The notes below the pieces were generated by a model that was not told the DNA's origin, did not search any database, and worked only from the letters and a program-made list of their open reading frames with translations. A stretch of 10,672 nucleotides of DNA from Candidatus Borrarchaeota archaeon. Its GTDB lineage: Archaea; Asgardarchaeota; Sifarchaeia; Borrarchaeales; Borrarchaeaceae. Numbering within the stretch: position 1 is the first letter of the stretch; each line of letters opens with the position of its first letter. Of the stretch, positions 39-10,672 are shown in pieces. The translations under genes and the position numbers were made by a program. The DNA lies in assembly GCA_016840645.1 (NCBI GenBank), contig JAEORY010000096.1, positions 1-10,672 on the forward strand, read 5' to 3'.

Positions 39-1250
39 ATGAAAAGATTAGTTATTGTAGTTATATCAATTTCGGTTTTCTTCTGCAATACAGAAGCTCA
101 ATTAATAATGGATTGTGATGGAAATGTGGGAATTGATGAGAGTTCTCCAGTTAGTACCCTTGCCATCGGTGGACCAGGGGCATCAAACTATAAGGTCAAC
201 TCAGTAGGAACAATTGGAGCTTACCACTGCGGTCTTAGAGGAGAAAATCCCACTTCTAGTGGCAATTCCAATTATGGAGTTGTCGGTGGTATCATTTATG
301 GACAGAACTCTGGCAAAGCATTTGGAGTATATGGAGTTGGATGGAAAGGTTCAACGCCGACAGATGGAAGAAGCTATGGTGTTTATGGTTATGCTGGAAA
401 TGCCACAAACGGCTACAACTATGGTGCATATGGATATCTGGTAAGTGGTCGCGATGGTGCTGCGGTGTATGGTACATTAAGTGGCGATACTGATGTAGAT
501 GGACAATATGCTGGATATTTTAATGGAGACGTTCATATTGAAGGAGATTTAACAGTGGATGGCACCTACCCATCGTCAGATATAAAATTGAAGAAAGATG
601 TCAGGGTGATTGAAGAAGATGTTATATCTAAACTTGAAAGTTTGCAAATCATAAGGTTTAAGAAAAAGCATTATTCGGAATATGAAGAATTGAGTGATAC
701 GACAGACAGAATGATAATCGAAGCTGAACTTCAATCAGAAAGATTCACCAAAGACAGAATTGGTCTGATTGCCCAGGAGCTCCAGCTCACCTTTCCAGAG
801 GTAGTAAAGGAAACAAATAGTGGTTATTTGGCTGTGGATTATAACCAACTAATTCCTGTATTGGTGAAAGCAATCACTGAGCAACAGGTTCAAATTGAGG
901 AACTGCAAGCTGCAATTGAATCAGGTGAGGCTCTAAAAGGGGCTGCTGTCAATTCATCAAGTTCAGATCCACTTTCCTCTGATGCTGGCGCATCTGCTCT
1001 ATATCAAAATGCACCAAATCCATTCACTGAGGAAACCTCAATCAGCTTTAGCTTGAGTGAAACCGTAGAATCAGCCACTCTGTTCATCTATAACATGAGT
1101 GGAAAGCAGTTAAAGAGCTATAGTTTGCATGATAGTGGGGATTCCAAAATTCGTATAAACGGTGGCGAGCTTGATGCAGGTATGTACATGTATTCTCTTG
1201 TGGCTGACGGTGACCTAATAGGGACCAAGCAAATGATTTTGACAGATTAA
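39..1250 (+). CDS. Secreted protein with S74 intramolecular chaperone domain and T9SS sorting tail
   Basis: Of 403 residues, 1-20 form a signal peptide ending before Gln21. Residues ~78-165 are Gly/Tyr-rich with recurring YGVYG/YGAYG/AVYG units, like fibre or beta-helix passengers. Residues ~179-290 match the Peptidase_S74 domain: Ser180-Asp181 followed by LKKDV, then the IGLIAQELQ and YLAVDYNQL motifs and a short helical stretch (AITEQQVQIEELQAAI). In phage endosialidases this domain trimerises the fibre and cleaves itself at a Ser with a Lys five residues on; Ser180 and Lys185 fit that spacing. Residues ~321-403 are a type A T9SS sorting domain (NAPNPF, then YNMSGKQL and GMYMYSLVADG), so export through the outer membrane by the Por system is expected. 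The start is the first ATG with a signal peptide. It is probably the first gene of a run, but only 38 nt of upstream sequence are visible, so its promoter cannot be judged. The ligand or surface role is unknown. Confidence 0.9.
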   Translation: MKRLVIVVISISVFFCNTEAQLIMDCDGNVGIDESSPVSTLAIGGPGASNYKVNSVGTIGAYHCGLRGENPTSSGNSNYGVVGGIIYGQNSGKAFGVYGVGWKGSTPTDGRSYGVYGYAGNATNGYNYGAYGYLVSGRDGAAVYGTLSGDTDVDGQYAGYFNGDVHIEGDLTVDGTYPSSDIKLKKDVRVIEEDVISKLESLQIIRFKKKHYSEYEELSDTTDRMIIEAELQSERFTKDRIGLIAQELQLTFPEVVKETNSGYLAVDYNQLIPVLVKAITEQQVQIEELQAAIESGEALKGAAVNSSSSDPLSSDAGASALYQNAPNPFTEETSISFSLSETVESATLFIYNMSGKQLKSYSLHDSGDSKIRINGGELDAGMYMYSLVADGDLIGTKQMILTD

Positions 1251-1282
1251 TTCTCACTCTTTGTTAATTAATTTTAAGGAAT

Positions 1283-2377
1283 ATGGAAACAAAAGATATC
1301 ACTCATTCATTTGCAGCAGAGTGTTTAATAAAATCTAGATATATCTTGTATCTGATAGTCATCCTTTGCTTTTCTGTTCAAAATAGCTACGGCTCAACTG
1401 ACATAACAGTCCGCCCTTATGAGATCAAGTTTGATCATGATAGTACAAGTCACAATGATGATGCGCTTACAATAAGTGATGAAGAGGGAGATCCAGCTCC
1501 TATACCAGAATGGAAGTACAGTCCTTCAAGGAATGATAATATTGCGTACATAAAAAACCAGACTGATCGGAAGATTAAAGTGAAATTCGATAGTAATTGT
1601 TCAGATATGCACCTGATTATTAATCTGACTGTTACTACCGGTACTGGAATTGGGGAAGTATGCAACCACGTCATAATGAACTATGAGGATTTACAAGAGA
1701 TAACATTAACCTTGGATGGTACGATTCCCAGCAGTGTTGACATCCGACAATTCACCTGGAAATGGGAGATATATGCCATTACGAATGAATCAGGTTATTG
1801 TTCTGCTTTGAGTACAAACTACACATCACATACTTATTATACCTTACTTGCAGTCCCTCAGGCGCCTATGACGGAACCTTGGTCTAATGTGCTGGATTAT
1901 GCTTGTGACTGGGCAAGTGGTGAATCAATTGATGTAAATGTTGTTGCAAAGGTTACAGAAGGTGCCTATAATAATTTAGAGGTAGAGTATGATGGAGATT
2001 GGTCACATGCATGGGTACCATATTTCGACTTAACAGATATGCTCAGTGATGGCTGGGCAGATTGTCAGGATATGTCAGCTGTAGTACAGGTATTCTCTAA
2101 CGCATTAGGTATTTCTGGCATTCTTGTAAAACGAATTGATGGTCGATTCGGTTATAAACTTATTCTTCCCATTGGTTTAACTTCATGGCAGGGAGGAATA
2201 TGGAACTTTCATCAGGTTGGTTATTATAGTAATGTCTACGATGCATGTCTTAAACTAAAAGCATCAGCACCTCGTATACCTGTAAACGAATCATTGAATG
2301 CTGAATACAAAAATGATCTGTACGCTTCAGGAACTTGGAATCCTCAAAGCTCAGAGTATTATACAGTTGTATATTAG
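1283..2377 (+). CDS. Secreted transglutaminase-like cysteine protein
   Basis: Of 364 residues, the N-terminus is long and polar, followed by a hydrophobic stretch (~19-33, ILYLIVILCFSV) and probable cleavage near YGS (~36-38), so it should enter the periplasm or be exported. The C-terminal half shows a transglutaminase-like triad: Cys261 in DCQDMSAVVQVFSNALGI, His310 in WNFHQVGYY and Asp320 in NVYDACLKL. The preceding AVPQAPMTEPW and LDYACDWASGE segments (~190-214) resemble what precedes the catalytic Cys in similar secreted proteins. Family members may be proteases, crosslinkers or amidases; the substrate cannot be read here. Residues 40-190 are not recognised and may be a beta-sandwich. No T9SS tail is seen. 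It begins 32 nt after the S74 protein gene with TAAGGA just upstream, and ends 28 nt before the next gene, so co-transcription is likely. A shorter in-frame ATG start was not found near the signal peptide. Confidence 0.8.
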   Translation: METKDITHSFAAECLIKSRYILYLIVILCFSVQNSYGSTDITVRPYEIKFDHDSTSHNDDALTISDEEGDPAPIPEWKYSPSRNDNIAYIKNQTDRKIKVKFDSNCSDMHLIINLTVTTGTGIGEVCNHVIMNYEDLQEITLTLDGTIPSSVDIRQFTWKWEIYAITNESGYCSALSTNYTSHTYYTLLAVPQAPMTEPWSNVLDYACDWASGESIDVNVVAKVTEGAYNNLEVEYDGDWSHAWVPYFDLTDMLSDGWADCQDMSAVVQVFSNALGISGILVKRIDGRFGYKLILPIGLTSWQGGIWNFHQVGYYSNVYDACLKLKASAPRIPVNESLNAEYKNDLYASGTWNPQSSEYYTVVY

Positions 2378-2405
2378 AACCTTATAGATTAATAGAATTA
2401 CTACT

Positions 2406-2912
2406 ATGCCAAAGATATTAAACATACGAATCGTATACGTCTGTATTTCTTTATGTTATTGCATTAATTCAGCATTGTATGCACAGCTTGATTTCATTCT
2501 TAAGGAAGATGCTGTTAAAGGATATGAATTGATTGAACAAAAGAGTTCTTTCTGGCCGATTAATTCCGATTCAATATCTAATGCCGCAATTAAACAGAAG
2601 TGGCAGGACTCTGAAAAAGGTGAATATTATGTTTTCTATTATGAATTTGAAAATAGTTCATTAGCAAGGCAAGGAACTGAATTTATAGCAAATTCATGCG
2701 CTGTACCTTATATTGAAGGATCACCTACTGGGGGTGTTTATGGAGAAAAATCTTGGGTTGCTGTTGATAGTAGCGCAGTATGCTTCCATTTAAGAAAATA
2801 CAGTATAATGATATTTAAACCGATTAACTTTCAACATAACGATAAAGAAAGATTGAAATTCTTTTCTGAAAATATTACAAAACAGATTAAGAGTTTATCT
2901 GATTTGGAATAG
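2406..2912 (+). CDS. Small secreted protein of unknown function
   Basis: A protein of 168 residues. Residues 1-26 form a signal peptide (hydrophobic IVYVCISLCYC, then SALYAQ), so the mature protein begins near Gln27. I do not recognise the family. The visible pattern is an alpha/beta mix: a YYVFYYEF strand (~74-81), EFIANS (~92-97), IEGSPTGG (~103-110), an ekSWVAVD strand (~114-121), then VCFHLRKYSIMIFKPI (~125-140), and a final charged helix containing KERLKFFSENITKQI. The order 'EFIAN ... EGS ... G ... W ... V-F ... I' recurs in the lipoprotein encoded next (residues ~94-166), suggesting the two share a fold. It lies 28 nt after the transglutaminase-like gene and is probably part of the same transcript, so it may be its partner. 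That is inference from position only. Confidence 0.75.
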   Translation: MPKILNIRIVYVCISLCYCINSALYAQLDFILKEDAVKGYELIEQKSSFWPINSDSISNAAIKQKWQDSEKGEYYVFYYEFENSSLARQGTEFIANSCAVPYIEGSPTGGVYGEKSWVAVDSSAVCFHLRKYSIMIFKPINFQHNDKERLKFFSENITKQIKSLSDLE

Positions 2913-3025
2913 TGAAGTAAGGCGCTATTACAACACTCTGGTTATCAATTGAAATCGTTATTGATATAATTGAGAAAACCTTGGATATTTAAATATACTC
3001 CTATGTGAACAACAAACGAATATAT

Positions 3026-3532
3026 ATGAAAAAGACATTCTATTTCATAGTAATTCTTCTTTTCAGTTGTCAGTGTGAGATCTTTGACCAAGCTGAAAAG
3101 TTTTTCGATCCGCAAGATCTGGTTTTGCTTGATCTGGCTGACATAAATGGATTCTGGCAAAATGTGGAGGAAATTGACACCACTTTTCGAGGTCGCGAAT
3201 TGGAAGGTCAGGGTTATCTGGGTGGTATTACATTGTCTGACGAAGATAACAACGAAATCTGTATCACTGTCTATTCGAATCAAGATTCTGCTATTAATGC
3301 TATGGAATTCAGAATTGCAAATGTATCTACGATTATCACGGAAGGCAGTTCAAAAGGTTTTGACAACAAGTGGTGGTATTCAGGTGGGGCGAGCCGTCCT
3401 GCGGTCTATTTCAATCAATGGAATACGATCATTGAGGTTATCATGTCTGATGTGGCATACAGCGAGGCCGAAACCACACTTATAAAGACGGCAAAAATAA
3501 TATCGAAAAGAGTTGATAAATTAAGTAGTTGA
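3026..3532 (+). CDS. Small outer-membrane or periplasmic lipoprotein, unknown function
   Basis: The chosen start is the ATG at 3026, giving MKKTFYFIVILLFSC, a lipoprotein signal with lipobox LFSC and acylated Cys15. An in-frame GTG at 3005 would add only seven polar residues and is less likely. The mature part is about 150 residues with no recognised domain. Its C-terminal half (MEFRIANV ~93-100, TEGSSKG ~105-111, KWWYSGG ~115-121, PAVYFNQWNTIIEVIM ~125-140, then a helix rich in Lys) parallels the C-terminal half of the secreted protein before it. The gap to that gene is 113 nt, longer than the earlier gaps, and holds a weak hairpin (ATCAAT at 2944-2949 with ATTGAT at 2960-2965). The gene may therefore have its own promoter, though no clear Bacteroidota -7/-33 element was seen. 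Confidence 0.75.
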   Translation: MKKTFYFIVILLFSCQCEIFDQAEKFFDPQDLVLLDLADINGFWQNVEEIDTTFRGRELEGQGYLGGITLSDEDNNEICITVYSNQDSAINAMEFRIANVSTIITEGSSKGFDNKWWYSGGASRPAVYFNQWNTIIEVIMSDVAYSEAETTLIKTAKIISKRVDKLSS

Positions 3533-3812
3533 TCTCCTTGGGTAAAGAGATGGAGAAAGATAGGAAGGAGTTCTCGGAGGGACTCATTCCGCAAGATGAT
3601 GGGAGGGGAAGCAGATCAGATTCAGTTCAATAACCATGGTGTTCTTGCTTTCAAATATGATCACATCCTGTAACTAACAAGTGCAAAGCCCATAAGAACT
3701 AAATGCAGATATTGTGCAAGGTAGACATATATGTAATTGAAAAACCAAATGGTTGGTAAATTCGTTTTCACATACATATTTAGAATATACGAAATCATCG
3801 AAAGTCAAGTTA
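3533..3812. other. Intergenic region without a recognised gene
   Basis: This stretch joins the lipoprotein gene to repeat copy A. It begins with a purine-rich run (3541-3610) holding a 27-codon ATG frame at 3550-3633 that has no signal peptide, no visible ribosome binding site and no recognised motif. The rest is AT-rich and has stops in all frames. No terminator with a T-run was seen after the lipoprotein stop. Confidence 0.5.
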
Positions 3813-3869
3813 AAAAGTGTATTGCAAACTGAGCGAAGCAAAGCAAGCGAATTTGTCAAATACGCTTTT
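3813..3869 (+). repeat. Terminal imperfect hairpin of repeat copy A
   Basis: AAAAGTGTATT (3813-3823) pairs with AATACGCTTTT (3859-3869) with one T-G wobble. After a small internal loop, CAAA (3825-3828) pairs with TTTG (3852-3855). The loop is variable between copies, while both arms are kept at 8133-8189. The wobble would be G-U in an RNA read from the + strand but an A-C mismatch on the other strand, which mildly favours a + strand RNA. Confidence 0.6.
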
Positions 3870-3936
3870 ACAATCGACAAACAGAAAAAACCTGCGGGCC
3901 GGAATCGTTGATCAAAAGGGGAGACGGGGGGCAGGC

Positions 3937-3995
3937 CATTGCGCCTGAAGCGGATTTTGCATTTTTCCAGGCACAAAATCCGCGGAACAGCAATG
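3937..3995 (+). repeat. Nested inverted repeats inside copy A
   Basis: The outer stem CATTGC (3937-3942) pairs with GCAATG (3990-3995). The inner stem GCGGATTTTG (3950-3959) pairs perfectly with CAAAATCCGC (3974-3983). In copy B the outer stem (8257-8262 with 8310-8315) is unchanged. The inner one keeps GCGG/CCGC and TTTT/AAAA but carries one mismatch and one wobble. This is the most RNA-like part of the repeat. Confidence 0.6.
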
Positions 3996-4222
3996 TCAGG
4001 GAGTCCGGAGCGGCTATTTAATATAATGCCTAATTATAGGACAATCTGCATAAACCTCAAACATTTAACATTTTGTGCGAAGGCTTGTGTGTCTATTTAC
4101 CTGAGCGACCAGGCGAAGGCAAGCGGCGAATTTTAAGTGCCAAATCGTAAAGATATCCTGGATGTCATCCCAAATGAGAAAGTTCACAAATGGGCATCTA
4201 TACAAGCGCAGATATAATATCA

Positions 4223-4433
4223 ATTATAGGACAAGGATTGCTGGTGTGGATGGATCCAACCAAAGCTGATAGAACTGGTGGAGGTCGCAAATGCTTTAAC
4301 ATAGGACAAACAGCCAGTGGCTGTTTGGGCCAGCATGTGGGCGGCGGCGGATGTAGGACCTGGAAAAGCTCCTATATCTGATTTTATGTCAATCAGCGGA
4401 GCTGACCAGGAATTGCTAGCATTGTCCTATAAT
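4223..4433. mobile_element. MITE-like sub-element in copy A with ATTATAGGACAA inverted ends
   Basis: Perfect 12 bp terminal inverted repeats, ATTATAGGACAA at 4223-4234 and TTGTCCTATAAT at 4422-4433, enclose 187 bp of non-coding DNA. A further ATTATAGGACAA copy lies at 4033-4044 and a partial ATAGGACAA at 4301-4309. The centre holds a perfect AAACAGCC-AGT-GGCTGTTT hairpin (4308-4326) and a GC-rich patch. Copy B has a different hairpin here. The element encodes no transposase, and no target-site duplication is visible. Confidence 0.55.
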
Positions 4434-4451
4434 GTACTTGGATTATGTTAA

Positions 4452-5185
4452 TATAGCTTTGATCCTAAAGCAATAATTATCAATTCTTTGTATGCTCAAA
4501 GAAACTTTCGATTGAACCTGGAAGGGGAGAGGTTAAAAGGTTTTGATTAAGGATTCGGGGATACACTCTTTTTGCGTTGCGCAGCAACGTGAAATGGGTG
4601 TTAACATCTACACTTTTTTTACCATGGTTCTGCATGTTTTGAAGCATATCATTCTCAGGATTGATTCCTATTTGTTACTGATAATTAGATGCTTGGCAGA
4701 AATTCGAAAAGACTCGTTTTCAATGGATATGCTCAATCTCAAAAGAAAATCCGGAGATACTTGACTTGAGAATACGAATGGCATAATTATAATACTGGAA
4801 TTCAGCTCAGGGTTTCCCTGTTTACTTCTTACTACTGTATTACCGCACCCCGGCAATCAGGTATTCGTGTCATCCTAGACCTACTGTCATTGGCATTGAA
4901 ATGATTTTTTCTTGCTTTACCATTGAATCAAGGACCAGTCTAGAATCGCAAAATATGTAATAAAGAAGCAACCTGTAGGACAACTATATCATCTTAGTAT
5001 TAATCAGGCAAATCATGTATTTCAATAATCATTTAACACACAAGCCACGTGATTTCATTTTATCTTATGGTTAACATCATTTAATAGTATCCTTAACACT
5101 ATTTCATGGACTTAGACCATATTCTCAATAGAGGGATATTTTCTGACTATTGAAAATCAAATACAAGATATAATATATAAATACC
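4452..5185. other. Long gene-poor region with one REP-like hairpin
   Basis: These 734 bp hold no convincing gene. Frames of about 60-75 codons occur on both strands but start at TTG or lack any domain or signal-peptide character. A hairpin CGTTGC-GCA-GCAACG sits at 4575-4589 inside a longer imperfect inverted repeat (4563-4602). A partial TGTAGGACAA motif lies at 4974-4983, like the ends of the neighbouring repeat. The last 100 bp are AT-rich and should hold the promoter for the lipoprotein-protease pair. A TATAAT at 5169-5174 is present, but its spacing to upstream TTG is wrong and it does not fit the Bacteroidota TAnnTTTG box, so no promoter is called. Confidence 0.6.
4563..4602. repeat. 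REP-like imperfect hairpin
   Basis: The core CGTTGC (4575-4580), loop GCA, GCAACG (4584-4589) is perfect. Outer arms ACACTC and GGGTGTT extend it with mismatches. It stands alone in the gene-poor region and no second copy was seen in the window. Confidence 0.45.
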
Positions 5186-5557
5186 ATGAAAGAGACAATT
5201 TTTAAAATCGGACTTTTTCTACTCATCTTTAGTTTTTCTGTGCAGGGATGCGAGAAAGATGAAAAATTAGATTCTAAAATATTGGGGAAATGGCAACTTC
5301 TTTATTCAACTGGTGGTATTGTGGGTACTTCTTATCCCAAAGAGGGGCACATTTATACACTTGAATTTACTGATGAGGGCATACTAATTGAGATGGATAA
5401 TAATGTGATCACGTTTGAAACGGAGTATAGTATCTCAGTCGATAAATTGACTTATTCTAGAGGCGCTCTTTTGAATTATACTGTGGCCATTTCTAATGAC
5501 ACGCTAGAACTTTCTGATATTACGTTTTCCTTCTATTATAAACGAATTAAACATTGA
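5186..5557 (+). CDS. Lipocalin-like small lipoprotein
   Basis: A protein of 123 residues. The N-terminus MKETIFKIGLFLLIFSFSVQGC is a lipoprotein signal with acylated Cys22, followed by a charged EKDEKLD tether. The mature part opens with ILGKWQLL (~32-39), then YTLEFTDEGIL (~57-67), and closes with NDTLELSD and FSFYYKR. This layout is typical of small Bacteroidota lipocalin-like lipoproteins, which form an eight-stranded beta barrel and probably sit on a cell membrane. No ligand can be named. The stop codon is only 2 nt before the ATG of the M4 peptidase, so the two are almost certainly co-transcribed and perhaps translationally coupled. That makes a supporting role for the protease (inhibitor, chaperone or anchor) possible but unproven. 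The start is the only ATG giving the signal peptide. Confidence 0.8.
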   Translation: MKETIFKIGLFLLIFSFSVQGCEKDEKLDSKILGKWQLLYSTGGIVGTSYPKEGHIYTLEFTDEGILIEMDNNVITFETEYSISVDKLTYSRGALLNYTVAISNDTLELSDITFSFYYKRIKH

Positions 5558-5559
5558 CT

Positions 5560-8076
5560 ATGAAAACTATACCTTACTATAAAATTTTAGCTTTTGGCTT
5601 TGCCATTATATTTGGATTCTCTCAAAATACTGAGGGTCAGGATAGCACTATTATTAAATACGATAAAACTGGTAATATAAAGTATATTAAGTTTGATGTG
5701 GGTTTTGAAACCGGTGATTGGGTCAGTCCTTCATCACCAGAAGCTTTTTTTAGTGAGATTTTGGGGATGAAAGGGGGTAATGAATTTGTTTTTAAGACCA
5801 AGCTCTCCAGAAAAAATGGAACTTATTATAAAATATATAAACAGTTTTATAAAGGAATTAAAGTTGATGAGGCTATCTATATTCTTGATTTCAAAGATGG
5901 TAAATTAAGAAAAGCAAATGGGCAGTTTGTGAAAATTTCAGATCTAGATACTACTCCTAAAATAACACCAGAAGAGGCCAGTAAATCCTATGCAGAATAT
6001 TTAAATATTAAGAAAACAGAAGAATTAAAATTTGTTTCTGTAATTGCTATTTCGCAAATTGAAGATTTCACCTCAGGAGATACAACTTACACTCCAAGAC
6101 TTTGTTATAAAATCAATCTTCTGAATACTCCAAACGAAAAAGGAGAAACTGGCTATATTGACGCCCATACAGGTAAGGTATACAAATCTGTAAGAATTTG
6201 GAGAGATTTTGCAACATCCGCAACTTTCTATACTCTATATAGTGGAACTAAGACAGCAAATACGGAGTATTATAATTCCAACTATAATTTAGCTGATTAT
6301 AGTCGAGATGCAGATATTCACACATGGGATTTGAACAATACGATTTGGTATAACGACTTGTATAATCGAGTAGAATTTACAGATAGCAATACAAGTTGGA
6401 CAGAGAATGAGCATTCCGCGAATTACGACCAAATGGCACTTGATGTTCATTGGGCACTGCAAGAAATTTATGATTATTTTGAAAATGATCATGGACTGGA
6501 AAGTTTCGATGGGGATAATGCTGATATAGATGCATACATTCATGCAACTTTTACAAATGGTAATAAAGACAATGCAGCTTTTGGAGTAATTGGTGATGAT
6601 CAAGCTTTCTATTTTGGAGATGGTGAAGATATATTCGATCCAATTGCTTCAATTGATGTAGTAGCTCATGAGTATGCTCATGGAATTTCCCATAATCTTA
6701 CAAATCTGAATGTCTCTGGCCACAGCACAATTCAATCAGCTTTGAACGAAGGTCTCTCCGATATTTGGGCAGTGATAATTGAAAATGAAATCGCCCCAGA
6801 AAAAAATGCTTGGAGGATCGCTGAAGAAGTGATCGATGTTTCTGGCAAAAACTGTTTGAGGAATATCGAGGACCCAGGATCAGCTTATGCATATACGCAA
6901 ATTTCTGATACACAGTATGGTGACTACTACGACGATGGAGAATACGAAAAAAGTGGGGTCTTTTCACACTGGTTTTACCTACTATCTGAAGGTGGGTCTG
7001 GGACAAATGATAGCGACCACGACTATACTGTATGGGGGCTTGGAATTGATGCTGCAACGGCCATAGTGTTTGATGGCCATACATCGAAATTCGCAAATAT
7101 TGCAGCCTATTCCCAAGCCGCTGATGCCATGATAGAAGCGGCTGATGACATCTTTGGCACAAATTCTATCCAATCACTTCAAGTTGAAAATGCCTGGTAT
7201 GCTGTTGGTGTGGGAAGTGATCCAGGACAAGTAACCATAACGGGTCCCACCAATGATCTTGTTTGCTCATCCGGAGCATCTTTTACAGTTAACAATGTGC
7301 CATCTGGCCATACTGTGTCCTGGACTTGTAGCACAAATCTTTCTCTGGTTTCATCCTCAGGTAATAATGCAACGTTTAATACCGGAAGTTCCACAAGTAG
7401 TGCAGGCTGGGTTCAGGCCACTATAACCAATGATACCTATGGAGGATCAGCGCCGGTTCGTTATGAAGTTTGGTGCGGAAAACCACAAATAACAAATAAA
7501 AAGGTTGATGGGAGTAGTTACTATACTGGATTCCAAGTTTGTCCCGGTGATCATTATCTAAATGTTACACCTGTCGGTGGTAATGCCGGTACTGCAACAT
7601 GGACTGTACCATATGGTATTACATATTCAGTTGGAACAAACACACTAGACTTTACTTTTCCATCGAATGCAAGTAGTGTTGCAATTACAGCCAAATCAGC
7701 AAATACTTGTGGTACAGGGCCTAACTCTAGTTTCTATTTGACAAAAAAGACCTGGGGATGCTATGATTCATATGCGATGACACTATCTCCAAATCCAGCT
7801 TCGGATTATGTAACTATTACTATGCTTGAAAATCAGCCTTTGATTGATTACACTGAATCTGGCAATACAACTGTGGATGTTGATGCTAAGGCTTACGAAC
7901 CCACTACTTATACGATCAATATCTATAACAACCAAAGTACTAAGTTATCCAGTGTAATCCGAAGTGGAAAAAGCTTTAATGTACCGTTAATAAACTTGCT
8001 TGATGGTACATATACAATAGAGGTAAGCGATGGTAGAAATAGTTACCGCCAACAACTGATTGTTAAACACAATTAA
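5560..8076 (+). CDS. Secreted M4-family (thermolysin-like) metallopeptidase with T9SS tail
   Basis: 838 residues from the ATG at 5560; an overlapping TTG at 5554 is less likely. Residues 1-27 are a signal peptide. Residues ~75-125 are an FTP-type propeptide (GTYYKIYKQFYKGIKVDEA), followed by a PepSY-like part to ~215. The zinc site is intact: H370-E371-Y-A-H374, with the third ligand Glu397 in NEGLSD. The C-terminal catalytic lobe runs to ~550 (SGVFSHWFYLLSEGG; VWGLGIDAA). Thermolysin His231, normally in a V-H-x-N-S-G motif, aligns with Tyr462 (EYEKSG, codon 6943-6945), and Tyr157 is not kept either. Activity may therefore be altered; a nearby His470 might compensate. Residues ~557-640 and ~643-730 look like two Cys-containing Ig-like domains, and ~738-838 is a T9SS sorting domain (LSPNPASDYVTI; LLDGTYTIEVSDG). 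It is likely exported to the surface to cut protein. The gene is paired with the upstream lipoprotein and flanked by the two repeat copies. Confidence 0.92.
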   Translation: MKTIPYYKILAFGFAIIFGFSQNTEGQDSTIIKYDKTGNIKYIKFDVGFETGDWVSPSSPEAFFSEILGMKGGNEFVFKTKLSRKNGTYYKIYKQFYKGIKVDEAIYILDFKDGKLRKANGQFVKISDLDTTPKITPEEASKSYAEYLNIKKTEELKFVSVIAISQIEDFTSGDTTYTPRLCYKINLLNTPNEKGETGYIDAHTGKVYKSVRIWRDFATSATFYTLYSGTKTANTEYYNSNYNLADYSRDADIHTWDLNNTIWYNDLYNRVEFTDSNTSWTENEHSANYDQMALDVHWALQEIYDYFENDHGLESFDGDNADIDAYIHATFTNGNKDNAAFGVIGDDQAFYFGDGEDIFDPIASIDVVAHEYAHGISHNLTNLNVSGHSTIQSALNEGLSDIWAVIIENEIAPEKNAWRIAEEVIDVSGKNCLRNIEDPGSAYAYTQISDTQYGDYYDDGEYEKSGVFSHWFYLLSEGGSGTNDSDHDYTVWGLGIDAATAIVFDGHTSKFANIAAYSQAADAMIEAADDIFGTNSIQSLQVENAWYAVGVGSDPGQVTITGPTNDLVCSSGASFTVNNVPSGHTVSWTCSTNLSLVSSSGNNATFNTGSSTSSAGWVQATITNDTYGGSAPVRYEVWCGKPQITNKKVDGSSYYTGFQVCPGDHYLNVTPVGGNAGTATWTVPYGITYSVGTNTLDFTFPSNASSVAITAKSANTCGTGPNSSFYLTKKTWGCYDSYAMTLSPNPASDYVTITMLENQPLIDYTESGNTTVDVDAKAYEPTTYTINIYNNQSTKLSSVIRSGKSFNVPLINLLDGTYTIEVSDGRNSYRQQLIVKHN

Positions 8077-8085
8077 TACCTATTA

Positions 8086-8121
8086 ACACCCTATCAAGGA
8101 AGTGACTCCTTGATAGGGTGT
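8086..8121 (+). terminator. Perfect 15 bp stem hairpin after the M4 peptidase
   Basis: ACACCCTATCAAGGA (8086-8100) and TCCTTGATAGGGTGT (8107-8121) pair without mismatch around a 6 nt loop. The hairpin begins 9 nt after the peptidase stop, as expected for a transcription terminator or 3' end-stabilising hairpin. No T-run follows on the + strand, so classic intrinsic termination is uncertain. It lies just outside repeat copy B and is not present before copy A. Confidence 0.7.
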
Positions 8122-8539
8122 CATAATCAAATAAAAGTGTATTGCAAACTGAACGAACCGCAGTGAGTGAATTTGCCAAATACGCTTTTACTAACGACAA
8201 ACAGAAAAACCTTGCGTGCCGGAATCGTTGATCAAAAGGGGAGACGGGGGGCAGGCCATTGCGCCTGAAGCGGATTTTGCATTTTCCCTGGCATAAAAAC
8301 CGCTGAACAGCAATGTCAGGGAGGCCGGAGCGGCTATTTAATATAATGCCTAATTATAGGACAATCTGCATAAACCTAAAACACTTAACATTTGCGTGCC
8401 GGCCTGTGTGTCTATTTACCTGAGCGATCAAGCGAAGGCAAGCGGCGAATTTTAAGAAAGAGCTGCCTTGAGATCCAGAATATCAACTCAAATAAGAAAG
8501 CCCGGAAATGGTCAGCTTTGCAAGCGCAGATATAATATC

Positions 8540-8720
8540 AATTATAGGACAATGATTGCCAGCGAGGATGGATCCAACCAAAGCTGGTAGACCAGGAGAA
8601 CATCGCAAATTGCTCCAACATAAAATCGGTACCGATATAGGGCAGCTACGCAGCGCCTATATCTGATTTTATGTTAATCAGCACGGCTTGCCAGGAATTG
8701 CTGGTTGTTGTCCTATAATT
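8540..8720. mobile_element. MITE-like sub-element in copy B with 13 bp inverted ends
   Basis: AATTATAGGACAA (8540-8552) and TTGTCCTATAATT (8708-8720) form perfect 13 bp terminal inverted repeats. A further CCAGC/GCTGG similarity lies just inside each end. The 155 bp interior lacks a gene. The left flank (GATATAATATC) is the same as in copy A, so if this was once an insertion it predates the duplication of the whole repeat. Confidence 0.55.
8617..8675. repeat. Long bulged hairpin in copy B centre
   Basis: AACATAAAATC (8617-8627) pairs perfectly with GATTTTATGTT (8665-8675). GATATAGG (8634-8641) pairs with CCTATATC (8656-8663). A GGTACC bulge (8628-8633) on one arm faces a single T (8664), and the apical loop is 14 nt. 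Copy A retains the right arm (CCTATATCTGATTTTATGT) but has lost most of the left arm, where a different hairpin has taken its place. Confidence 0.6.
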
Positions 8721-8741
8721 AATGTTATGTTAAATAGAATA

Positions 8742-8780
8742 TGTGAAAAGAAAGGGAGATATAATAAAATACCTCCCCTT
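8742..8780 (-). terminator. Intrinsic terminator of the gyrA-TPR operon
   Basis: On the - strand, AAGGGGAGGTA (8780-8770) pairs with TATCTCCCTTT (8761-8751) around an 8 nt AT loop, with minor wobble or mismatch. CTTTTC (8750-8745) then gives a T-rich tail. It starts 12 nt after the TPR gene stop and fits a Rho-independent terminator for this leftward transcript. Confidence 0.65.
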
Positions 8781-8791
8781 CGTTAGTTCTG

Positions 8792-10129
8792 CTACATATT
8801 ATTTTTCAATTCTTTAACTCGCTCGTATTCCGAGGTCATCTCTTCTTTGTAGTAGATTCTCTGGAGCAGATCCAGGGTTTCATATTTCACCTCGCGATTC
8901 TCTTCGTTCAATGAATAGGCTTTCTCCAGTATGGGAATAGCTAACTGGTATTTCTCCTTGCCAAGTTCAATAAGTTTATCCCTTACGGCTCCATCCTGTT
9001 CTTCATTGGATCTCTCAAAGAAATCAGCGCCCTGCAGATAATAGATATAACCCATATCGTACCAGACATAGTATATGTTCGGATTCAGCTCTCCGGCTTT
9101 TTCATAAGCTTCGATTGCTTTATCTACTGCTTCTACCTCTTCCTTATTAATCAGCATACGTCCAAGCCAGTAGTAAGATTCGGGAATCTGATCATTCTTT
9201 TCAATAACCGATTCCATAAAGGTGATCCCCTCATCGATCTGGTGCGTGACTATATATAAATTAGCAATATTTGCAATAATATTCACTGTGTCAGGATATT
9301 TCTCATATGCCTCTTTCAGGGTTGCCAGAGCATTAACCGTATCTCCAATGTTCTGATAGTCCATCTGAATCTGCAGATAGGTATTTGGTCCTCCGAAATC
9401 GGCAGCTGCCAGCTGCTCATAATAAGCAATGGACTTTTTATAAAGCTCTTTATTATCAGTCTTGCCAGCTATCTCCCGGGAAATAATCCCTGCATACTGA
9501 ATCATAACCGTATCAACTTCGCCTGCAAACAAGTCAAGCTGGTTGATTTCAAGAACATCTTCGAAAGAGCCTAATGCACCTTCATAATTCTCTGCATAAT
9601 AGTCATTTACGCCCTGTCTCTTCAAGGATGCCTTCACTGATGTAAAACCCTCTTTTACTTTGGGCGTAAGCTTTCCTTTATCGTCCAGTTCAAGAGTTTT
9701 CTTATAGGCATCGATTGATTCCCTGAGGGGATTTTCAGTGATGGGATTAATACGCTCCCACTGCTGAAGGGCTCCATTCACAAAGACGTATTTCATGTTT
9801 TCATAAATATAGGTCTCCTCAAGTGTTCCATCTTCCATGGTCTCGTTTTCGATGCTCTTGGGTTTCTTGTAAAACAAGGTAAGCATTTGAGTATCCATGC
9901 CTTCCTGAACCTGTTCCAGTCCGATGTTAAAGACATCCTGAAAGAGGTCTCCCCTCTTCTGCCATGTTGCAGCTTTAACATTCTTTTTTGGGTCCTTAAT
10001 TTCCGCATCACTTTTATCAACCTTCTTTTTTACAGCACTGGGATTCAGCAGAACCACAGTTGATGCCTCCTGGGCATTAAGGCTGATAACAGCTAAAGCG
10101 ATAATTACTAATGTTATAAACTTTCTCAT
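8792..10129 (-). CDS. Secreted tetratricopeptide-repeat (TPR) protein
   Basis: A protein of 445 residues. Residues 1-20 (MRKFITLVIIALAVISLNAQ) are a signal peptide, so the protein is periplasmic or membrane-associated. Residues ~45-150 are a charged alpha-helical head with a predicted beta hairpin (TYIYENMKYVFVNGALQQWE). From ~170 on, TPR-type helix pairs follow: NDYYAENYEGALGSFEDVLE (~175-194), the 250-280 pair, 282-314, YYWLGRML through AIEAYEKAGELNP (~319-350), and a last pair near 390-440. TPR arrays mediate protein binding; the partner is unknown. It lies 74 nt downstream of gyrA on the same strand with no terminator between, and I recall Bacteroidales genomes placing such a TPR gene after gyrA, so a shared transcript is likely. 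No Shine-Dalgarno is seen. Base composition looks less AT-rich than the M4 gene, fitting a resident chromosomal backbone. Confidence 0.88.
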   Translation of the reverse strand: MRKFITLVIIALAVISLNAQEASTVVLLNPSAVKKKVDKSDAEIKDPKKNVKAATWQKRGDLFQDVFNIGLEQVQEGMDTQMLTLFYKKPKSIENETMEDGTLEETYIYENMKYVFVNGALQQWERINPITENPLRESIDAYKKTLELDDKGKLTPKVKEGFTSVKASLKRQGVNDYYAENYEGALGSFEDVLEINQLDLFAGEVDTVMIQYAGIISREIAGKTDNKELYKKSIAYYEQLAAADFGGPNTYLQIQMDYQNIGDTVNALATLKEAYEKYPDTVNIIANIANLYIVTHQIDEGITFMESVIEKNDQIPESYYWLGRMLINKEEVEAVDKAIEAYEKAGELNPNIYYVWYDMGYIYYLQGADFFERSNEEQDGAVRDKLIELGKEKYQLAIPILEKAYSLNEENREVKYETLDLLQRIYYKEEMTSEYERVKELKNNM

Positions 10130-10203: not shown

Positions 10204-10672
10204 CTATTCTTCAACAGCCTCAGTTTCTGCTTTATCCTCCTCTTCGCCATCGCCATGTGCCGGCACCTGTGTGGCTGCTGCGATCTGATCCCCATCTCTC
10301 AGGTTTATCAGTCTAACACCCTGCGTGTTACGACCCATTACTCTCACGCCACGAACAGCAAGTCTGATGGCTATTCCATTTTCGGTAATAATCATCAGGT
10401 CATCCTCATCCGTAACGGCCTTGATGGCAATCAAATTACCGGTTTTATCGGTAATATTAATGGTTTTGACGCCTTTCCCTCCACGATTTGTAAAGCGATA
10501 GTCCTCCAGTATGGAGCGCTTTCCGAAACCGTTTTCTGAGATAACCAGGATATCCTGTTCTCCCGCTTTTGCAGTAACCATTCCAACGACCTCATCCTTG
10601 GGTCCGCCCAGGGTAACACCTTTCACACCTGATGCGGTTCTTCCAACTGCGCGAACGGTTTCTTCATGAAAG
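10204..10672 (-). CDS. gyrA: DNA gyrase subunit A, C-terminal part (runs off the window)
   Basis: Only the last ~155 residues are in the window, open to its right edge. They form consecutive blades of the GyrA C-terminal beta-pinwheel, which wraps DNA so gyrase can introduce negative supercoils. Blade motifs visible are VGRTASGVKGVTL, NRGGKGVKTINI and MGRNTQGVRLINL, each followed by strands such as EQDILVISENGFGKR and DDLMIITENGIAIR. The protein ends in an acidic tail (GEEEDKAETEAVEE), as in many Gram-negative GyrA proteins, where the tail modulates supercoiling. The first ATG/GTG-like codon in the visible part is internal and not the true start. The catalytic Tyr domain and the GyrA box lie outside the window. 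ParC is the alternative, but the RGGKGVKT repeat pattern and the gene order favour GyrA. Confidence 0.93.
   Translation of the reverse strand, partial: FHEETVRAVGRTASGVKGVTLGGPKDEVVGMVTAKAGEQDILVISENGFGKRSILEDYRFTNRGGKGVKTINITDKTGNLIAIKAVTDEDDLMIITENGIAIRLAVRGVRVMGRNTQGVRLINLRDGDQIAAATQVPAHGDGEEEDKAETEAVEE

Follow-up and report, generated by a model that had tools for sequence, protein, structure and literature searches.

Xer-integrated microviruses of Bacteroidetes and the dif modules of Acinetobacter are already known, and both offer points of comparison for the locus described here. Among the IMEX, CTXphi has two attachment sites 90 bp apart, attP1 with a 12-bp centre and attP2 with a centre of 5-7 bp, and its integration proceeds by XerC-only exchange, according to the available sections of PMC4246890. 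The microviruses of the BMV/Alpavirinae group are integrase-less and use dif-like attachment sites, and some of them have another dif-like sequence close to one end; the 2011 paper that describes them states that chromosome dimer resolution had at that time not been studied in any Bacteroidetes (PMC3091885). The dif modules of Acinetobacter hold TA and adaptive genes flanked by Xer sites (PMC6449649) and form arrays (PMC12907356). No description of a dif module family in Bacteroidota that has neither virus genes nor an integrase was found in the open-licence PMC literature, where no paper combines IMEX, Xer and Bacteroidota; the available parts of PMC6060240, PMC7062461 and PMC13342612 hold nothing of this kind, and the word "bacteroid" is absent from the main text of the IMEX review PMC5357621. 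The two repeats analysed here seem, from their sequence, to be the shared end of small integrase-less modules that would enter Bacteroidales chromosomes at dif via the host XerC/XerD.

The window, by which we mean the whole stretch of 10,672 nucleotides, contains two direct repeats, A (from 3813) and B (from 8133), with a start-to-start distance of 4320 bp. Their leading 261 bp are 92% identical with zero indels and are followed by blocks of 81-89%; blastn aligns 494 bp at 85.8% plus a separate tail block, and over the whole of LE (the first shared end) and core the identity is 83.0% across 587 aligned columns, a likeness far beyond chance. An earlier note had described same-orientation repeats 4320 bp apart with an early stretch of about 92% and no indel, which these measurements bear out, and had reported that no frame with an ordinary start is open in both. 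Each of the six frames is interrupted in both copies (5-14 stops per frame, longest open run 74 codons), and both copies are non-coding. The extents given there, 3813-4451 and 8133-8733, hold at their starts and need correction at their ends: A extends to ~4602 via a second repeat family, RE, which is absent from B, and B ends in a dif-like site at 8708-8735, whose leading 11 bp are matched exactly by A and the remainder as a variant.

Both copies share a defined anatomy. The LE of A, which forms the left part of this repeat (3813-4015, + strand), has a terminal hairpin AAAAGTGTATT..AATACGCTTTT, and the LE of B lies at 8133-8335 (+); the 16-base LE start AAGTGTATTGCAAACT recurs at occupied dif sites of relatives, exactly in genomes G005 and G368 and with 1 mismatch in G308. 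LE is followed by an attP2-like site on the - strand, at 4016-4044 in A (XerD-like arm 4016-4026, 7-bp centre 4027-4033, XerC-like arm 4034-4044) and at 8336-8364 in B (7-bp centre 8347-8353). The core comes next, at 4045-4421 (+) in A, where it includes a long hairpin as well as a third dif-like half-palindrome (4206-4234), and at 8365-8707 (+) in B, with a half-palindrome at 8524-8552. A then continues through an attP1-like site (4422-4453, +), relative to which its attP2-like site is inverted and which consists of a XerC arm (4422-4432), a 10-bp centre (4433-4442) and a XerD arm (4443-4453), into RE (4454-4602, +), the second shared end, with a closing hairpin ACACTC..GGGTGT. B terminates in the chromosomal dif-like site (8708-8735, +), which reads TTGTCCTATAA-TTAATG-TTATGTTAAAT, the 11-6-11 layout of dif, with the XerC arm at 8708-8718, a 6-bp centre at 8719-8724 and the XerD arm at 8725-8735. 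A constant chromosomal flank (8736-8790, no strand assigned) with the hairpin AAGGGAG..CTCCCCTT separates this site from a TPR gene (8792-10129, -, Pfam) that marks the dif locus, and the 3' end of gyrA (10204-10671, -, Pfam) lies beyond it. The attP1-type sites continue into the RE start in 18 of 19 cases, the exception (locus L066) not being RE, and dif-type sites at TPR continue into the TPR flank, not RE; this is the pattern that exchange solely at the XerC-arm border would leave, since the centre then stays with its XerD-side flank. At two loci a 30-bp hairpin-like insert lies inside the dif-like half sites of attP2 and of the mid site (twice in L051, once in L054). An integron attC was also considered and rejected: GTTAAAT resembles an R' box because it sits in the XerD arm.

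A search with a 22-base core word in the GTDB species genomes led to two MAG contigs (Bacteroidales bacterium RS_7_37 and Bacteroidia bacterium CSMAG_481), and window positions 3790-4620 are matched in 11 of the 28 genomes of the family to which these MAGs belong. The matches fall into two separable pieces that overlap by ~35 bp, a 600-bp LE-core piece (3813-~4456) and a 180-bp piece (~4422-4602) that recurs alone, several times on some contigs. B-like copies end at the overlap and most 180-bp copies start there, some later; judged by its sequence, the overlap is the Xer site. Across the order, the exact attP1 pattern occurs in 4 of 393 genomes, so that the strict pattern understates the element family, and blastn with 2 scored candidates per genome gives matches in at least 11 of the 393. 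In the family of G368, some match was found in 5/6 genomes, mostly short. Many of the copies in relatives come from short contigs or lie at the end of one.

The position of B proved constant. The B-type flank through the TPR-gene hairpin is also present in six other genomes, and the right end of B lies at one fixed locus in seven genomes, window included. Within the family sample of 28 genomes, 21 TPR loci were located: the core stands directly against the site in 6 (the site being degenerate in G004), 1 has a compact form (G013, site degenerate too), 9 are bare, and 5 are on contigs that end inside, at or before the site. Bare sites at TPR in element-less genomes had been predicted beforehand and were then found. 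At the 9 bare loci, blastn with LE-core (E<=1e-4) gives nothing in 8 and, in G026, a 25-base match that is dif itself, and 7 of the 9 genomes lack any match to the element. A comparison of relatives for empty sites, as the earlier note had advised, thus returns a bare dif at 9/21 TPR loci.

The site can be followed by pattern as well. TATAA-N6-TTATGTTAA has 26 matches in 18 of the 28 family genomes, against 6 for a reversed-pattern control; 15 are of dif type, 10 are one recurrent other sequence and 1 is another. All dif-type matches save one (14/15, including G022:C135) lie beside a gyrA-linked TPR gene, the exception being in G001, near parC. There, on contig C21 (L044/L164, ~1540-2147), an LE-core copy ends in a dif-like site near parC/parE, and the TPR-side dif of this genome (L090) is bare; the explanation could be a mixed bin, or an additional dif or replicon. 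The recurrent other sequence behind 10 of the 26 matches is TATAAAAAAGATTATGTTAA; it occurs in 10/28 family genomes with a similar flank and is not the TPR-side site. Beyond the family, a 23-base dif pattern occurs in 54 of 295 genomes of the order (reversed control 0). Among 30 loci examined out of 56 sites, a convergent TPR gene lies within 400 bp on the XerD side in 21 and farther away in 3, with none found in 6; attP2 is present upstream in 3 (27 without) and LE, by pattern, in 0, 3 of the 30 having less than 110 bp of upstream sequence. Hence, element-less dif sites are the rule in the order. Several single loci deserve mention. On G265:C190 the exact dif sequence occurs twice, with a spacing of 203 bp and the same orientation (5622-5644 and 5825-5847). 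Three MAG contigs (L086, L089, L094) start inside the dif site, as expected if the XerC-side sequence is a multi-copy repeat. In G013 (L183), a compact attP2 at 17485-17581 lies ~50 bp from the degenerate dif, and a group II intron reverse transcriptase gene (Pfam) follows at 18147-19631.

GC skew was analysed in 10 site-bearing contigs, each 20 kb or longer, using the raw and the detrended cumulative maximum. The skew switch falls within 70 bp of the site in 5/10 contigs by at least one of the two measures: by both in G308 (raw 35 bp, detrended 24 bp) and G091 (44 bp for each), by the raw measure alone in G319 (64 bp; detrended 48 kb off), and by the detrended measure alone in G198 (68 bp; raw 77 kb) and G026 (36 bp; raw 16 kb). 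On G001:C21 the switch is 414 bp away detrended and 70 kb raw, which is hardly a test since the site is 2 kb from the contig end. It lies off the site in G013 (2.3 kb at best), G027 (3.8 kb), G368 (11 kb, on a 34-kb contig) and G146 (55 kb). In 10/10 contigs the skew drops from the left of the site to its right, and the site is placed at the replication terminus.

Three places make both dif and other module sites visible, namely the window, G308 and G368, and each is a single-orientation array ending at dif. In G308 the array spans 9.6 kb with every site in the same orientation and runs TPR, dif, LE, Vsr, AAA_21, Response_reg_2, HEF_HK/HATPase, C5 methylase, attP1; loose patterns applied to 340 kb of this genome (17/20 pieces, the three nearest dif being excluded) gave dif 0, attP1 0, attP2 0, LE 2 and RE end 1. 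In G368 a single contig carries two attP1 sites, at 1.7 and 15.8 kb, and, at 22.7 kb next to TPR/gyrA, a dif that is occupied and has LE, all in one orientation. On G015:C126, four RE sites are interspersed with an FG-GAP-like gene (by eye), an MNT/HEPN pair, an AbiE-like pair (by eye; without a Pfam or PADLOC match) and a HepT-like gene. The ends of this contig (L041, 1-39 and 6796-6834) overlap exactly over 39 bp, and an MNT/HepT pair would span the join; this reflects either modules joined in a circle or a loop in the assembly graph. The genes between the common ends in G308, G368 and G015 show a cargo that differs from place to place and in which TA and defence genes recur. Another five contigs (G065, G176, G012, G018 and G001:C52) showed no dif in the 14.7-20 kb scanned of each; their sites lie within ~2.5 kb of a contig end, with the dif-ward side facing it, so that closeness to dif is unreadable there.

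In the window, the candidate cargo genes are all on the + strand. A lipocalin-like lipoprotein (5186-5557; so named in the earlier note, with zero Pfam matches) and an M4 (thermolysin-type) peptidase (5554-8076; Pfam; with a PKD-like domain and a T9SS tail slightly below the Pfam cut-off) are best explained as the cargo of a dif-proximal unit of 4,286 bp (4433-8718), neither of whose two main ORFs matches a recombinase family in Pfam. The suggestion that this pair had been captured fits what was found, since it is flanked by two Xer-type sites at the chromosomal dif. The peptidase has matches at E<=1e-30 in just 2 of the 28 family genomes, at 34-36% identity, and is therefore accessory; in a large protein set (best 120 of 553 matches; 7,993 candidates scored), it matches one cluster at 97%, one at 78% and others at no more than 54%. 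Upstream, a S74/T9SS-tail protein (39-1250; Pfam) and three unassigned ORFs (1283-2377, 2406-2912 and 3005-3532) are the probable cargo of another module (39-3532), whose left end is outside the window. No integrase was found among the 8 window ORFs scanned by Pfam, and no phage family save the Peptidase_S74 chaperone domain, which is present outside phages too. At L053 (946-1342), a C-terminal fragment of a relative of the S74 gene abuts a truncated RE copy, so that this gene family may also be cargo or target.

We consider it very probable that the region is a tandem array of IMEX-like modules exploiting Xer recombination, at the chromosomal dif beside gyrA-TPR. This reading starts from direct observations: the sites, their order and orientation, the position at dif, the bare sites in relatives and the varied cargo. 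We infer from these XerC/XerD as the enzymes, a single-stranded substrate and the transfer route. A circular module would have a single attachment region composed of LE, the inverted attP2-like site, the core, the attP1-like site with its enlarged centre, and RE. XerC would swap strands at the border of XerC arm and centre, between dif and attP1, the latter probably as a folded single strand. At one end, the insert would then consist of LE-attP2-core-XerC arm joined to the chromosomal 6-bp centre and XerD arm, which would restore a normal dif beside TPR (copy B); at the other, it would consist of XerC arm, enlarged centre, XerD arm and RE. A further insertion at the rebuilt dif would create junction A, whose layout is that expected from CTXphi-like XerC-first integration of two modules in tandem at dif. 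Xer excision would probably be poor given the enlarged 10-bp centre in A, and by analogy with CTXphi A and B would be expected to be stable against it; loss of the pair by recombination between A and B, which offer direct dif-like sites and long homology, is possible. Single-strand folding of seven compact attP sites gave z -6.1 for L081 and +0.1 to -1.8 for the six others, and arm covariation amounted to 1 double change, equalled in 183/500 shuffles, a lack of signal explained by arms that are too conserved.

Among the alternatives, the repeats may be remnants of ssDNA viruses (microvirus/inovirus) integrated by Xer at dif that have enclosed host genes between their prophage ends. Such proviruses of Bacteroidetes do use dif-like sites, some with a second near one end, as the available sections of PMC3091885 report. 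Against this, Pfam finds no capsid or replication family in the 28 ORFs scanned, 8 of the window and 20 from relatives (several of these ORFs having no match at all), IMG/VR scans returned 0 contigs for the exact attP1 pattern, 0 for the LE 20-mer and 0 for the core 22-mer, and blastn of A against phage and plasmid collections (word size 11) gave zero matches; we regard a viral origin as unlikely. The dif pattern has 1 match in IMG/VR, a phage contig (L187) with a dif-like site at 28-51 beside an integrase-like gene at 199-1335 (by eye), and this phage may use dif with its own enzyme.

Spread of a non-autonomous transposon or MITE family into intergenic gaps, with the gene pair bracketed by chance, is very unlikely. 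The family is multi-copy in relatives, its arms resemble inverted repeats, transposase genes (IS30-like in L001, by eye, and DDE in L043) lie near two copies, and one copy is near parC (G001:C21). However, what looked like a "terminal repeat" is a dif-like site, which stands bare in element-less genomes too, the right end of B occupies one locus in seven genomes, and copies form one array wherever dif is visible. The idea in the earlier note that the element spreads on its own into intergenic gaps runs against the same pattern, one array at dif in 3/3 readable places, with the parC copy as the exception. A transposon with CTATTTAA terminal repeats had been a candidate and was dropped when the arms turned out dif-like.

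An old structured RNA gene, vertically retained downstream of gyrA-TPR, would account for the same location in 6 family genomes and for the fold of B (z -3.45, 20 shuffles), and a conserved ncRNA was favoured while six gyrA-TPR loci were seen to share the repeat, until bare dif sites appeared there. The fold of A reaches only z -1.49, Rfam has no match in the whole window at the gathering cut-off and nothing credible by E-value in 3700-4700, attP2 is absent at 27/30 order dif loci, and copies lie away from TPR in arrays, all of which makes an RNA gene highly improbable. Least credible of all, to the point of being nearly negligible, is a tandem duplication of local origin, or one that included the gene pair, with no mobile element involved: the window has two copies only, in the same orientation, but RE and the enlarged centre are in A and neither is in B, identical anatomy occurs in other genomes, and A is as near to the G005 copy (83.1%) as to B and nearer to that of G004 (89.9% over 179 columns; B versus G004 78.6% over 145 columns), so that A is not a recent duplicate of B and the purely local origin that the earlier note had named as its refutation is contradicted.

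If the region is an array of Xer-dependent modules, entry by host Xer at dif would give one fixed spot for gathering TA, defence and protease genes. It links an intergenic repeat to the chromosome terminus, makes the dif beside gyrA-TPR a fixed address for accessory genes of a Bacteroidales lineage, and supplies a ready dif marker in the order, the site on the gyrA-TPR side. Next to integrons and the dif modules of Acinetobacter, it could represent a further way for bacteria to build gene arrays with a housekeeping recombinase. We also offer, tentatively and as an idea that may well prove wrong, that Bacteroidales possess an integrase-less system resembling an integron, in which interchangeable TA, defence and secreted-enzyme modules are collected in an ordered terminus array by host XerC/XerD acting on a folded single-stranded site, dif being rebuilt at each insertion, and in which the long shared ends carry signals for travel as satellites of a helper, e.g. 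a dif-using ssDNA phage.

Mobile integrons share with this locus cassette arrays with TA/defence cargo, and a folded single-stranded site is plausible here. In integron attC the conserved/variable border is at the R' box, whereas here the borders are at the LE start and the RE end and the scanned ORFs contain no integrase. Acinetobacter pdif modules (PMC6449649, PMC12907356) likewise have Xer sites around TA/adaptive genes and module arrays, but their sites are plain 28-bp ones in opposite orientation (XerC/D and XerD/C) and they occur on plasmids or far away from dif1. The sites in the window point one way, in direct orientation, with centres of 10 and 6 bp, and the modules have long conserved ends and sit at the primary dif. 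Microvirus proviruses of Bacteroidetes resemble the modules in phylum, absence of an integrase and dif-like sites, as far as the accessible portions of PMC3091885 go; BMVs carry capsid and Rep genes in ~6 kb, whereas the cargo seen here is of cellular type and the 8 scanned window ORFs include no microvirus capsid or Rep gene. The closest counterpart is the CTXphi-type IMEX of Vibrio. Unlike it, the modules are known from sequence alone, have no phage genes seen, have shared ends of ~600 and ~150 bp and form tandem arrays with varied cargo, and we would not class them as CTX-type phage. Like CTXphi as described in PMC4246890, they have a pair of dif-like sites in inverted orientation: the centre of one is enlarged, to 10 bp against 12 bp in CTXphi, and that of the other measures 7 bp, against 5-7 bp in CTXphi. 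A normal dif likewise stands at one insert end. The unit in the window is positioned at the chromosomal dif, has its own dif-like attachment site and encodes no recombinase in its two main ORFs, as an IMEX does, and the evidence of its sites suggests that it works like one of the CTXphi type.
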